A DNA stretch of 64,000 bases. Source: Melioribacteraceae bacterium (GTDB lineage Bacteria > Bacteroidota > Ignavibacteria > Ignavibacteriales > Melioribacteraceae). The stretch's first letter is position 1. Every line of letters begins with the position of its first letter. Shown piece after piece: positions 15,663 to 21,202 of the stretch. The notes under the pieces were generated by a model. That model had not been told where the DNA came from, did not search any database, and saw nothing but the letters and a program-made list of their open reading frames with translations. The DNA lies in assembly GCA_021740785.1 (NCBI GenBank), contig JAIOZI010000022.1:1-64000 (forward strand), read 5' to 3'. The translations under genes and the position numbers were made by a program.

Positions 15663-17057
15663 TTACTTCCTGTATTTTGAAATAAATTCTTCCACTTCCG
15701 GCAAGCCTCCTTGATATATAAGATACCCGTTGCTCGGTTCCCGTTCTGTTGTTTCGCCTGCTACCGGGGTCAGCATAATTTCTTTAACTTTTTCAAGATC
15801 ACCGGTTTGACCAAGCGCCCAGCCCAATTTTACATAAGCGACTTCGGGCAGCATATTTGCCGCCGGAACAACTCCCAATTGCAGCATCTCCCGACCGGTT
15901 TCATAAACATACATCTGGACGTATCCCCACAAAGTTTGTACAGTCATATAAACCGCAACATTTTTTTCTTGTGCACGTTTGAGTGCGGCATACGCAGGTT
16001 TGTTTACGTGACCAAGTCCCGTTCCCGCAATCACGATACCCTTGTAACCATTATCGATCAGTGAATCAATAATATCCGGCTGCATATTTGGGTAATAATA
16101 AACGATACTAACTTTTTCTTCAAAGACTGCATTTATCTCAACGTTTTTATCTTTGCGCCTTTTCTTATAATCTTTTCTCAGCGGCGTTATACTCTCGCGG
16201 TCTACCTTTGCGATCGGTATATCGCCTATGGTGCGGAATGTTGACCGGTAACTAGAATGCATTTTTCTAACCCGGGTTCCCCTGTGCAGCAATCCGTATT
16301 GATCCGAAGTAGGACCGAACATACAAACCATCACTTCTGCAATATCGCTTTCCGCTGCAGTTTTTACTGCATGTATTAAATTTAATGCCGCATCGGAAGA
16401 AGGACGATCGCTGGAGCGCTGCGAACCAACCATTACAATCGGCACCGGTGAATTTTGCACCATGAATGAAAGTATAGCGGAAGTATGATGCATAACATCG
16501 GTTCCGTGACCAATTACAATTCCGTGCGCACCGTTTTCAATCTCCTTCCCGATTGCTTTGGCGGTGCCTATCCATTGTTCGGGACCCATATTTTCACTGA
16601 ACACACCATAAAGTTTTTCGGTATGGAGATTGCAGTAATCCGCTAATTCCGGAACTGAGCCGTACAACTCACCGGGTGAAAATGCAGGTATTACAGCGCC
16701 GGTTCTATAATCCAAACGGCTCGCAATTGTTCCGCCGGTTCCAAGTAATTTTACATTGGGTTTGTTTTCATCATAGGGAAATTCTTTTTCCGGTATTTTG
16801 TAATGCGCTTCTTTAAATCCGTTTATCTTTATATCAACTATCGACCGGGCGGCAATTCCTATGTTGTATCCGACCGGCATTTTTAATACAATATGAAGAT
16901 TATCTGCAGTTTCGGAACGCGGAAGGATTAATCCTTTATAACTTCCCTTTGCTGTGATCAATTCCACCTCACTCCATACCGGAGCCTTAAATTTCTTTAA
17001 TACCTCAAGCGCATTACCGCTGTAACCTTTGAAGCTGTTTTCGTTAATAATTGTCAT
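15663..17057 (-). CDS. gatD: Glu-tRNA(Gln) amidotransferase subunit D, archaeal type, 464 aa
   Basis: Glutaminase subunit of the GatDE enzyme, which converts Glu-tRNA(Gln) to Gln-tRNA(Gln). An N-terminal beta domain (about 25-85) precedes an asparaginase-like domain. Active-site residues can be read: Thr110 in LGTGGTIAS, Thr186-Asp187 in GHGTDVMHHT and Lys265 in RVRKMHSSYR. The last is a GatD mark rather than a plain asparaginase one. Length fits the family. It lies 104 bp downstream of gatE on the same strand. GatDE is classically archaeal, while bacteria use GatCAB, so its presence here is notable. I see no frameshift or missing residue. Confidence 0.9.
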   Translation of the reverse strand: MTIINENSFKGYSGNALEVLKKFKAPVWSEVELITAKGSYKGLILPRSETADNLHIVLKMPVGYNIGIAARSIVDIKINGFKEAHYKIPEKEFPYDENKPNVKLLGTGGTIASRLDYRTGAVIPAFSPGELYGSVPELADYCNLHTEKLYGVFSENMGPEQWIGTAKAIGKEIENGAHGIVIGHGTDVMHHTSAILSFMVQNSPVPIVMVGSQRSSDRPSSDAALNLIHAVKTAAESDIAEVMVCMFGPTSDQYGLLHRGTRVRKMHSSYRSTFRTIGDIPIAKVDRESITPLRKDYKKRRKDKNVEINAVFEEKVSIVYYYPNMQPDIIDSLIDNGYKGIVIAGTGLGHVNKPAYAALKRAQEKNVAVYMTVQTLWGYVQMYVYETGREMLQLGVVPAANMLPEVAYVKLGWALGQTGDLEKVKEIMLTPVAGETTEREPSNGYLIYQGGLPEVEEFISKYRK

Positions 17058-17161
17058 TTTTTACCACGCAGTGTTTTCAATTTTATCAAGGTTTTTGTAA
17101 TTACTTTATTTTCCAATCCCGCTAAAAATTTCGATTCAACAAAATCTTACAATTATTGTCA

Positions 17162-19072
17162 CTAGAGAATATTGTTTAGAACTCTGCTTATTTCTTCACC
17201 GCTGATGCTGACGCGCAATCGATTCATAACTTCACCCATTATTATATCTTTTCTTTTTTCATCATTATTAATCTTCAACCCATTTACAGCGTCAATTGAT
17301 TCGCGAATAATGTTATCAATTTCATTTTTAGTGCGTGGTTTCGGAAGCATTTCGGGATAAAACTTTCCACGGATTAACGACTTTTTGAGTACCGGTAAAA
17401 TCCCGTCACGCGAAATTAACTTCAAGGAATATGCATCAAAAATTTCACTAAACATTTCTTCGGTTATCAGGTTTATATCATACCCTTTTCTTTTCAATCT
17501 TTTCGGAAATTGAATTATCGTAACTGCTGCAAGTGTCGGATTAATATTCTTCTCATTAACCAATTGTTTAAACAATTCCGCAAATTGAGAAATGGCAAGC
17601 GGTCTGCGGGTATCTTCCGGGATGCCCAGTTCAGCATACCATTTTTCCCTTACCCAGTAAAGTTCGGGAACACGCATTCTTATCAATTTAATTCTTTCGG
17701 GAGCTATCATTATCGGAGGCAGATCGGTATCGGGATACATTCTATCGGCTCCCGGCAATATGCGTTCAAAACCATTTGTTCCATCGCTAAGCGCCTGACG
17801 GGTTTCGGACGGGATTCCGGTTGCAGCTTCCTTCGCCCGAATAATTATTTCCTTTACGGCTGTATCCGTATCGTCTTCATCTCCCCATACAAGAACCATT
17901 GTATCATCATCTCCGGCTCCAACCGTTTTTTTTACAAGCCGCCATTCGGAGGAAATAAGGTTATCTCCTTTGCTGTCGGAATGTGCAAGGTTTGGTATTG
18001 TAGTTAGACAGGCAATAACTCTTATCCTATCTGAGATTTCTTTTGAAAAATATGTATCCGTCTGAGTCTGCCAATGAAGCAAGTCTTTGAATCCTTTCAA
18101 AACAACACATTTAATTTTCAGATTTTGTTCAACTGCTTTTTCTAGCGGGAGATAATTCGGATGCTTAATCAAACCGGTAATATCATAGCTCTCGGCTTCA
18201 AATGTACCGGGAGTGATTCCCCGCCGCTTTAGTTCTTCTCTTAATCTCAAAAGATTCCACTGGCGCATAGCTTCGTTATAAGTGAGCAGCGGTATCATGG
18301 GGAGACGCGGAACACCTTTGATTTCAATCCTCGTTCCGCCGTCAACACTTACGTTAACATCCTGCCTTGCCGCGCCAATTCCACGTCGTACTTTATGAGT
18401 GCTTCTGACTAAGTTGCTCAAGATTTTTCCTACCTCTGCAACTTCAACTGGTGTTTTCATATTTGGTCCGGTTACCGTTTCGATGAGCGGCATGCCCAAG
18501 CGGTCTGCAACATAAATTCTTTGGTGACCGGTATCATTAACTTCGCGGCATGAATCTTCTTCAATTGATAACTGAACAATTTCTATTTCACGATCTTTGT
18601 ATGGAATCTTGCCGTCAACCGCAAAGACTGCAGTTCTTTGAAATCCTGTTGGAATACTACCGTCGAGATATTGTTTCCGGGTAATGTGAATCTCGTCGAC
18701 AATGTTGCAGCCGTAAAGCAGACCAATTTCAATCGATATATCCAGAGCCTGATCATTAATTAGGAACGGGGGCGTATCATCCATTTCATATGTGCATACA
18801 GTGTCGCGGTTTATCCTGTAAATAATATTTTTCTTCGTCTTGAATTCCATTAAAGCCGTGCCGTCGTATTCACCCAATTCGGAAAGTGTCGGACGCATAT
18901 GCCGCAATATTTCAGCATCATACTTATCACTGTATAACCCGGCGGGGCACCGGCAGAACAATTTTTTGTCTGTTAGCAGCTGCTGATGGATTTCCAAACC
19001 GGATTTAAAACCAACTTCGGCATAATCTTCATCTGTCATTTGCTCGAATGGCTTAAAGATAAAATCTTTCAT
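17162..19072 (-). CDS. gatE: Glu-tRNA(Gln) amidotransferase subunit E, archaeal type, 636 aa
   Basis: tRNA-binding and amidating subunit of GatDE. The start GLEIHQQLLTDKKLFCRCP (about residues 26-43) is the GatB/GatE kinase-like signature, and the Cys pair belongs to its zinc site. The chain is about 150 residues longer than GatB because it contains the AspRS-like insert (about 270-420) found only in GatE. The C-terminal YqeY-like tRNA-binding tail ends at SISGEEISRVLNNIL. It precedes gatD, so both subunits are encoded together. The insert is what separates this from a bacterial GatB. Confidence 0.9.
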   Translation of the reverse strand: MKDFIFKPFEQMTDEDYAEVGFKSGLEIHQQLLTDKKLFCRCPAGLYSDKYDAEILRHMRPTLSELGEYDGTALMEFKTKKNIIYRINRDTVCTYEMDDTPPFLINDQALDISIEIGLLYGCNIVDEIHITRKQYLDGSIPTGFQRTAVFAVDGKIPYKDREIEIVQLSIEEDSCREVNDTGHQRIYVADRLGMPLIETVTGPNMKTPVEVAEVGKILSNLVRSTHKVRRGIGAARQDVNVSVDGGTRIEIKGVPRLPMIPLLTYNEAMRQWNLLRLREELKRRGITPGTFEAESYDITGLIKHPNYLPLEKAVEQNLKIKCVVLKGFKDLLHWQTQTDTYFSKEISDRIRVIACLTTIPNLAHSDSKGDNLISSEWRLVKKTVGAGDDDTMVLVWGDEDDTDTAVKEIIIRAKEAATGIPSETRQALSDGTNGFERILPGADRMYPDTDLPPIMIAPERIKLIRMRVPELYWVREKWYAELGIPEDTRRPLAISQFAELFKQLVNEKNINPTLAAVTIIQFPKRLKRKGYDINLITEEMFSEIFDAYSLKLISRDGILPVLKKSLIRGKFYPEMLPKPRTKNEIDNIIRESIDAVNGLKINNDEKRKDIIMGEVMNRLRVSISGEEISRVLNNIL

Positions 19073-19330: not shown

Positions 19331-21202
19331 TTATTGTTTCATCTTGCGCGGCTTTATCATATTCTCGGGCGCAAGAAGGTTATCCAATTCTACCTTGCTC
19401 AGCAATTTTTTCTCCAATACAAGTTCATATACCCCGCGGTTGGTTTTAAGCGCTTCTTGTGCAAGCGATGTGCTGACTTCATAACCCAGCACCGGGTTTA
19501 ATGCCGTTACCAATCCAATGCTGCCCTCAACAAGCTGGCGGCATCTCTCTTCGTTTGCCGTAATACCGTCTATACATTTATAAGTAAGAGTCATCATTCC
19601 GTTCTTCAGCATTTCTATCGATTCAAATATACTTTGAACGATTACCGGTTCCATGACATTTAACTGAAGCTGTCCCGCTTCCGCGGCGAGTGTTACGGTT
19701 AAATCATTACCGATAACCTTAAACGCGATTTGATTAACAACTTCGGGAATAACGGGATTTACTTTCCCAGGCATTATTGAAGAACCGGGCTGCATCGGCG
19801 GCAGGTTAATTTCATTTATCCCTGTCCGCGGTCCCGACGAAAGCAAGCGAAGATCATTCGACATTTTCGAGAGTTTAACCGCAAGCCGTTTAATTGCGGA
19901 TGAGTACATCACAAACGCACCGGTATCTTGTGTCGCTTCAACTAAATTTTGTGCAAGTTTTAAATCATGACCCGATATTTCCCTCATATATTTTATGCAC
20001 TTCTCGCCGTAATCGGGATCTGCATTAATTCCGGTACCAATTGCGGTTGCGCCCATATTTACTTCGAGAAACAAATCGGCATTCTGTTTTAATCTTTGAA
20101 TCTCCTCTTCAAATGTAACGGCATACGCTTCGAATTCCTGTCCCAGTGTCATCGGCACGGCATCCTGTAACTGGGTTCTGCCCATTTTCAATATATGAGA
20201 AAACTCTTCGGCTTTTTTATGAAGTGATTTAATGAGTAACTGCAAAACTTCAACAAGTTTTTCATTTGCATTAATTATAGCGAGTTTTACTGCCGTAGGA
20301 TAAGCGTCATTTGTTGATTGTGAAAGATTTACATGGTTATTCGGATGGCAATATTTGTATTCACCTTTCTCATATTCCAATATTTCCAATGCACGGTTTG
20401 CAATCACTTCGTTTGCGTTCATATTGGTTGATGTGCCTGCGCCGCCTTGTACCATATCAACAACAAAAAATGAGTGATGCTTTCCGTTTAGTATTTCATT
20501 GCATGCTTGAATTATTGCATCGGAAACCGGTTTGGATAATAGCCCCAATTCAAAATTGGCTTTTGCCGCAGCCATTTTAACGATTGCAAGAGCTTCAATT
20601 ATAACCGGGTAAAAATTTAGCGGAACTCCGCTTATGTTAAAGTTTTCTAATGCACGAAGCGTTTGAATTCCATATAAATATTCATGAGGAACTTCTCTAT
20701 CGCCGAGTAAATCATGCTCCGACCGGGTTCTTCCCGAAAGGTATTGATGCGCAACGTTAATTACTCTTGTATTTGCCTGACGCATACGCCGCGAGATTAC
20801 ACGTGCCACATGCGAAAATATTTTCAGTGCAATCGCGCCGTGTTTTTCGATAAGTGCGGTAAACTTTTCCCGGCTGATAAAAAGAGCCGTAGTTCTTAAT
20901 AAAGCCCGTGCGGATGTAGAATGAGGAGAATCATCAAGAAGCGAGCCCTCGCCGAGAAAATCATATTTGCTGAAAAAGGCTAAACGTTTTTCATCACCGA
21001 AGGAAGTCCGCTTGAACAGTTCAACCTCGCCGTCAAATATTACATAAAGATTACGCCGAGGATTGTTCTCGCTGAAAAGGAGTTCCGAAGTGTCAAAAGT
21101 TTTTTCTTCAAAATTTTCAGCAAGCAGATTTATTTCTTCTGCATTTAATTCCTTAAAAAGAGCTACACTCTTTAAAAATTCTTGAACAAGATTTACTTCC
21201 AT
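19331..21202 (-). CDS. aspA: cNMP-binding-like domain fused to aspartate ammonia-lyase, 623 aa
   Basis: The C-terminal 460 residues form an aspartase that deaminates aspartate to fumarate. The fumarase/aspartase signature GSSIMPGKVNPV is at 473-484; QGGAGTSTNMN (252-262) and NLSQSTNDAYP (292-302) are substrate-site segments, and the latter group favours aspartase over fumarase. The N-terminal 145 residues are a cyclic-nucleotide-binding fold (DGEVELFKR, then FLGEGSLL). The nucleotide cassette usually ends in PRSA; here it reads SPHSTSAR, so the key Arg is shifted or lost and the ligand is uncertain. This fusion suggests allosteric control of the enzyme by a small ligand. A GGAGAGGGT ribosome site precedes the start. 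Confidence 0.88.
   Translation of the reverse strand: MEVNLVQEFLKSVALFKELNAEEINLLAENFEEKTFDTSELLFSENNPRRNLYVIFDGEVELFKRTSFGDEKRLAFFSKYDFLGEGSLLDDSPHSTSARALLRTTALFISREKFTALIEKHGAIALKIFSHVARVISRRMRQANTRVINVAHQYLSGRTRSEHDLLGDREVPHEYLYGIQTLRALENFNISGVPLNFYPVIIEALAIVKMAAAKANFELGLLSKPVSDAIIQACNEILNGKHHSFFVVDMVQGGAGTSTNMNANEVIANRALEILEYEKGEYKYCHPNNHVNLSQSTNDAYPTAVKLAIINANEKLVEVLQLLIKSLHKKAEEFSHILKMGRTQLQDAVPMTLGQEFEAYAVTFEEEIQRLKQNADLFLEVNMGATAIGTGINADPDYGEKCIKYMREISGHDLKLAQNLVEATQDTGAFVMYSSAIKRLAVKLSKMSNDLRLLSSGPRTGINEINLPPMQPGSSIMPGKVNPVIPEVVNQIAFKVIGNDLTVTLAAEAGQLQLNVMEPVIVQSIFESIEMLKNGMMTLTYKCIDGITANEERCRQLVEGSIGLVTALNPVLGYEVSTSLAQEALKTNRGVYELVLEKKLLSKVELDNLLAPENMIKPRKMKQ

Follow-up and report, generated by a model that had tools for sequence, protein, structure and literature searches.

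A GatDE-family gene pair beside glutaminyl-tRNA synthetase in a Melioribacteraceae chromosome and its bacterial relatives

The gatE-gatD locus and its family

The window, as the whole 64,000-nucleotide stretch of Melioribacteraceae contig JAIOZI010000022.1 analysed here will be called, carries on its minus strand a gatE gene followed, across a gap of 104 nt, by gatD, and no terminator-like site was found between the two. The genes and their parts are:

17162-19072, minus strand: gatE, amidotransferase subunit E, 636 aa, first gene of the pair (TIGR00134, NF003107, 1zq1_C, AlphaFold model)
18248-19030, minus strand: GatE N-terminal catalytic domain, residues 15-275, with H29, E171 and E198 of the ATP/Mg site (PF02934; invariant residues)
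17813-18220, minus strand: GatE AspRS-like GAD insert, residues 285-420 (PF02938 in 26/28 relatives)
17165-17452, minus strand: GatE tail, GatB/YqeY-like tRNA-elbow domain, residues 541-636 (PF02637, 29 bits over stretch 500-636)
15663-17057, minus strand: gatD, asparaginase-like amide-donor subunit, 464 aa (TIGR02153, PF00710, PF17763, PF18195, 1zq1_A)
16827-16970, minus strand: GatD_N domain, residues 30-77 (PF18195, 44.6 bits)
15747-16760, minus strand: GatD glutaminase/asparaginase core, residues 100-437, with T110, T186, D187 and K265 (conserved residues)
15666-15740, minus strand: GatD C-terminal extension, bacterial-only, residues 440-464 (alignment of 97 bacterial GatDs)

Both open reading frames are exactly those that a sequence-only reading had put forward as a gatE and gatD lying together with the motifs of true GatDE, and both exceed the cut-offs of the NCBIfam equivalog profiles, GatD with 513.8 bits against TIGR02153 (cut-off 324) and GatE with 476.5 bits against TIGR00134 (cut-off 319.6), besides 546 bits against NF003107. 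Pfam recognizes GatD_N and two asparaginase domains in the one protein and GatB_N and GatB_Yqey in the other. The top solved structures for both are the archaeal GatDEs 1zq1 and 2d6f, at E-values of 1e-95 to 1e-120 (GatD to 1zq1_A, 5e-120; GatE to 1zq1_C, 4e-104), and an AlphaFold model of GatE has 1zq1_C and 2d6f, of the same fold, as its first matches. The AspRS-like insert claimed for GatE is present, though weak in the window protein taken alone (PF02938, E 0.18), where the copy is degenerate, yet 26 of 28 relatives match it; the YqeY-like tail profile PF02637 is likewise matched in 26 of the 28. Judged by sequence, the window's gatE-gatD is confirmed as a true GatDE-family pair in a bacterial chromosome.

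Contamination on a chimeric contig, which the same reading had named as a way for the pair to be dismissed, is ruled out. The genome (4.85 Mb in 115 contigs) is 99.88% complete and 0.15% contaminated, GC is unchanged across the pair, the closest relatives of GatE and GatD in trees are those of other Melioribacteraceae, and among the relatives are two chromosome-level records that carry gatDE, CP053447 and CP054675. The neighbours are, as had been said, bacterial: GrpE, DnaJ, a phosphate-type binding protein and AlaRS.

In its two subunits, domains and catalytic residues the pair is like the archaeal GatDEs of Pyrococcus abyssi (1zq1) and Methanothermobacter thermautotrophicus (2d6f), the common domains being GatD_N and the asparaginase core of GatD, and the catalytic, GAD, helical and tail domains of GatE. 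Unlike them, it belongs to a different clade, with identities to them of 33-35% in GatE and 47-51% in GatD, shares the cell with GlnRS and with tRNA-Gln lacking A1:U72, and has a hypervariable GatE tail, an extra GatD C-terminus and some 30 GatE positions differently fixed. GatB of bacterial GatCAB has catalytic and YqeY-like tail domains in common with GatE, but its glutaminase partner is GatA, of amidase fold and absent here, and GatE groups with archaeal GatE rather than with GatB. The type I asparaginases share core and catalytic residues with GatD; unlike them GatD has the GatD_N domain, an operon with gatE and a score above the GatD equivalog cut-off.

A bacterial clade and its distribution

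In a tree rooted on GatB, the 68 bacterial GatEs group as one clade (SH-aLRT 94) next to the three from archaea (99), and the GatD tree, which has no outgroup beyond the archaea, splits likewise into bacteria and archaea (support 100). GatE identity is 49-53% between archaea, 57-70% from bacterial sequences to the window and 31-36% from bacteria to archaea; GatD identity is 71-92% within bacteria (about 80% across phyla) and 44-52% to archaea. With only a few archaea sampled, every one of them euryarchaeal, ancient divergence and an old transfer both fit. On these trees, bacterial GatDE is a distinct clade, sister to three euryarchaeal GatEs. GatE falls outside the GatB clade and GatD outside ordinary asparaginases, so that the placement of both within a bacterial asparaginase/GatB clade, on which the sequence-only reading would have been given up, was not obtained. 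Its label ‘archaeal-type’ holds as to GatDE family and the grouping with archaeal GatE, but not in the sense of a recent import from the sampled archaea, the bacterial clade being a separate one. A single extra archaeal gatE was seen, unannotated and in two reading frames, on the Natrinema thermotolerans plasmid record CP031304 (L235:2700-5200), and is probably frameshifted or the product of sequencing error.

Of the phylum, 395 genomes were sampled and 29 proved to have GatE above the cut-off; these belong without exception to the window's class, where they represent seven family-level groups. Named genomes, when scanned, yielded 80 loci with 57-73% identity, mostly from Ignavibacteria and Kapabacteria, the other labels being Marinimicrobia, KSB1, Aminicenantes, Acidobacteriota and Chlorobiota; such MAG labels can err, as with a record labelled Desulfobulbaceae (L164) that shares its gatDE neighbourhood with an Ignavibacteriae record (L161). 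Within genera presence is patchy (four genomes with and one without in genus g6, for example), and no GatD relatives were found on viral contigs.

In the relatives gatE and gatD are adjacent, mostly overlapping or a few bases apart, in contexts otherwise scrambled, and no third gene that might name a substrate recurs among gatDE loci except where synteny is close; PhoH, aldehyde dehydrogenase and Ada are neighbours mainly in Melioribacteraceae. In the window an aspartate ammonia-lyase gene (19331-21202, minus strand) lies 258 nt upstream of gatE, and the N-terminal region of its product (about residues 1-150) resembles a cyclic-nucleotide-binding regulator; its like was not seen beside gatE at other loci, and its cluster has no other member. 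Apparent GatD fusions of 567 and 892 aa proved to be upstream open frames in GC-rich DNA and not domains.

Conserved active sites, a loosened tail and the tRNA-charging context

The GatD residues singled out from the sequence, Thr110, Thr186-Asp187 and Lys265, are present and 99-100% conserved in 97 bacterial and both archaeal GatDs, and H29, E171 and E198 of GatE are invariant in 106 bacterial and three archaeal GatEs; by alignment we take the latter to be the ATP/Mg residues H15, E157 and E184 of the Methanothermobacter enzyme. Such near-complete invariance across bacteria and archaea argues that both half-reactions are under selection, and with the two active sites and the operon so strongly maintained the pair very probably encodes a working amidotransferase.

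Conservation along GatE is uneven. Its catalytic domain has a mean identity of 78% within the bacterial set and 43% to archaea. For the tail the bacterial mean is 24%, little above the 19% of shuffled tails and below the 38% that archaeal tails share. In the three genomes compared that have both enzymes, identity in the catalytic domain is 90-92% for GatE and 82-91% for GatB, and in the tail 40-55% and 70-87%; GatB here is a matched control, and the tRNA-elbow domain of bacterial GatE is thus under much weaker constraint. The tail nevertheless folds confidently in the AlphaFold model and in part keeps the motif G..M...R....G (G613/M616/R620/G625), so its divergence does not establish that tRNA binding has been lost. 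About 30 GatE positions, several of them in the catalytic domain, are fixed in bacteria at a residue unlike that of all three archaea. GatD for its part is lengthened at the C-terminus by some 25 residues (440-464; EPSNGYLIYQGGLPEVEEFISKYRK in the window), most positions of which are at least 97% conserved in the 97 bacterial GatDs and over which both archaeal GatDs are gapped except at the last column. The GatD monomer model is of low confidence at the extension and too weak to place it, as might be expected of a partner-binding segment, though that is no proof of one.

Profile searches of the window's genome, on which the absences also rest, found GlnRS (contig C81, 784 bits), AsnRS, one bacterial GluRS, a bacterial AspRS and LysRS. 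The GlnRS and GluRS genes adjoin (L002/L003, contig C81), an arrangement repeated in many relatives. No Amidase-family (PF01425) match occurs anywhere in the genome, hence no GatA, and no intact GatB was found, only a 113-aa open reading frame that matches the C-terminal GatB tail alone (69.5 bits to GatB; L226:5832-6173, plus strand, contig C49), possibly a remnant of a lost gatB or else a stand-alone YqeY-like protein. The sequence-only reading had proposed a search for gatA, gatB and glnS and had left two alternatives, that Gln-tRNA formation depends on the pair or that the pair is a spare or has another RNA substrate. As GlnRS is present, the former is excluded for this genome, and the latter remains.

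The same picture holds more widely. Among 57 different genomes with GatDE (29 of the class, for which completeness figures exist, and 28 from the named loci, whose absences are less secure) not one relies on the pair alone for Gln-tRNA, and GatDE as the only route is rejected. GatB is absent from 23, all of which have both GlnRS and AsnRS, and is retained in all eight that lack GlnRS as well as in all five that lack AsnRS; put otherwise, GatB has been lost in 23 of 47 genomes with both synthetases and in 0 of 10 others (Fisher p 0.004, uncorrected for kinship). With GatB lost only where both synthetases are present, GatDE seems unable, or insufficient, to replace GatCAB for decoding. Five GatDE genomes have AsnRS but no GlnRS and retain GatCAB, which must then be kept there for Gln despite an available GatDE.

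Nor has tRNA-Gln the features expected from archaea. Archaeal GatDE needs the A1:U72 pair and D-loop of tRNA-Gln, and archaeal tRNA-Gln also has A73 (PMC9499178). The check proposed for these features came out against them, both tRNA-Gln genes of the genome having the bacterial-type U1-A72 and G73; the mismatch bears on the substrate and not on the protein family. U1-A72 is found in tRNA-Asn too, and, among the tRNAs read in the genome, A1-U72 only in tRNA-Trp. A G1-U72 first pair occurs in many tRNAs: four tRNA-Arg, two tRNA-Leu and tRNA-Glu CUC (L044, L047, L048, L039, L055, L061). Within one genus the tRNA-Gln(UUG) gene of G047, which lacks gatE, is letter-identical to that of four genomes with it; to judge from these genes, tRNA-Gln shows no sign of co-evolution with GatDE. 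As to the proposed check on GluRS type, the genome's enzyme agrees with the presumed discriminating enzymes of two relatives without GatB or GatE at 38 of the 50 diagnostic positions, a figure for which shared ancestry alone could account. If it is of that type, Glu-tRNA(Gln) should be rare. Arg358 was discarded as a marker, being present in both presumed non-discriminating enzymes also and known not to be transferable between phyla.

What the pair may do

An accessory GatDE amidotransferase working beside GlnRS is the reading tentatively preferred, at somewhat short of an even chance; its job would be the repair of stray Glu-tRNA(Gln). GatD would free ammonia from glutamine or asparagine and pass it to GatE, which, using ATP, would activate and amidate the carboxylate of glutamate (or aspartate) on the tRNA 3′ end. 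The stray Glu-tRNA(Gln) would arise by GluRS error or when GlnRS is limiting, with GatDE its repairer and not the bulk supplier of Gln-tRNA. That the GAD insert and tail motif are still present favours a tRNA substrate, and accessory status follows from the finding of GlnRS, AsnRS, AspRS and GluRS together with the pattern of GatB loss and the patchy presence of the pair. Against the correction of stray Glu-tRNA(Gln) stand the absence of A1:U72 from a tRNA-Gln that, as tRNA-Gln(UUG), is identical with and without gatE, the nearly unconserved elbow-binding tail, the 30 or so GatE positions that differ from archaea, and the failure of any of the eight GlnRS-less genomes to replace GatCAB by GatDE. 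Much of this is what one would expect had the substrate changed, the catalytic changes, loose tail and new GatD C-terminus reflecting the amidation of a different RNA-linked or protein-linked carboxylate. Proteins about 78% (GatE catalytic domain) and 80% (GatD) identical across phyla yet 43% and 48% to archaea, a near-random GatE tail where same-genome GatB tails hold at 70-87%, a near-invariant GatD extension, a pair that nowhere provides the only Gln or Asn route and a tRNA-Gln without the archaeal signature all speak for such a change; the retained GAD insert and YqeY-like tail with its partly conserved motif, and the want of a conserved third gene to name the substrate, speak against it. 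It is rated possible but doubtful, and correction of stray Glu-tRNA(Gln) is favoured over it in a close choice. A narrower form, in which the bacterial subfamily has left Gln-tRNA synthesis to amidate another aminoacyl-tRNA or RNA-linked substrate, with relaxed elbow recognition and the GatD C-terminus docking a partner, may be given about the same credence, and likewise with doubt.

Could the pair instead support tRNA-dependent asparagine synthesis on tRNA-Asn? The U1-A72 of the genome's tRNA-Asn, the aspartate ammonia-lyase gene just upstream of gatE and the part that GatCAB is thought to play in bacteria with AsnRS and GlnRS (PMC4206432) would suit it, but AsnRS is present in 23/23 GatB-less GatDE genomes, the 5/5 without AsnRS keep GatB and the archaeal enzyme is described as acting on Glu-tRNA(Gln), so this is improbable. 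A shade more improbable is a regulated asparaginase/glutaminase of free amino-acid metabolism with GatE a mere partner: the asparaginase fold of GatD and the adjoining aspartate ammonia-lyase are in its favour, and the invariant ATP/Mg site of GatE and the failure of that neighbour to recur at other loci are not. A dispensable relic or an assembly artefact without current function would accord with the patchiness within genera and is scarcely credible, refuted in practice by active sites and a GatD conserved almost completely across several phylum-level groups and by closed chromosomes that carry the pair.

There is a partial precedent in the bacteria, Bdellovibrio among them, that have AsnRS, GlnRS and GatCAB (PMC4206432), where an amidotransferase likewise stands beside both direct synthetases; unlike there, the amidotransferase here is GatDE, and 23 genomes have no GatB left. 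That survey of 2014, covering 547 genera, knew of no bacterium with both Gln-tRNA routes. Reviews of 2021 (PMC8007984) and 2022 (PMC9499178) have GatDE as archaea-only, build accounts of LUCA and of tRNA-Gln and GlnRS evolution on that, and explain the archaeal lack of GlnRS by co-evolution of GatDE with tRNA-Gln. Literature searches found no published description of bacterial GatDE; the gatD and gatE sequences themselves may well be public already with automatic annotations. A bacterial GatDE clade beside GlnRS contradicts the archaea-only statement, and the coexistence makes the co-evolution argument directly testable. GluRS specificity has been inferred from ‘GlnRS present, GatCAB absent’ (PMC3927822), an inference that misses GatDE-bearing genomes. 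Beyond such corrections, bacterial GatDE points to an extra amidotransferase function in several phyla.
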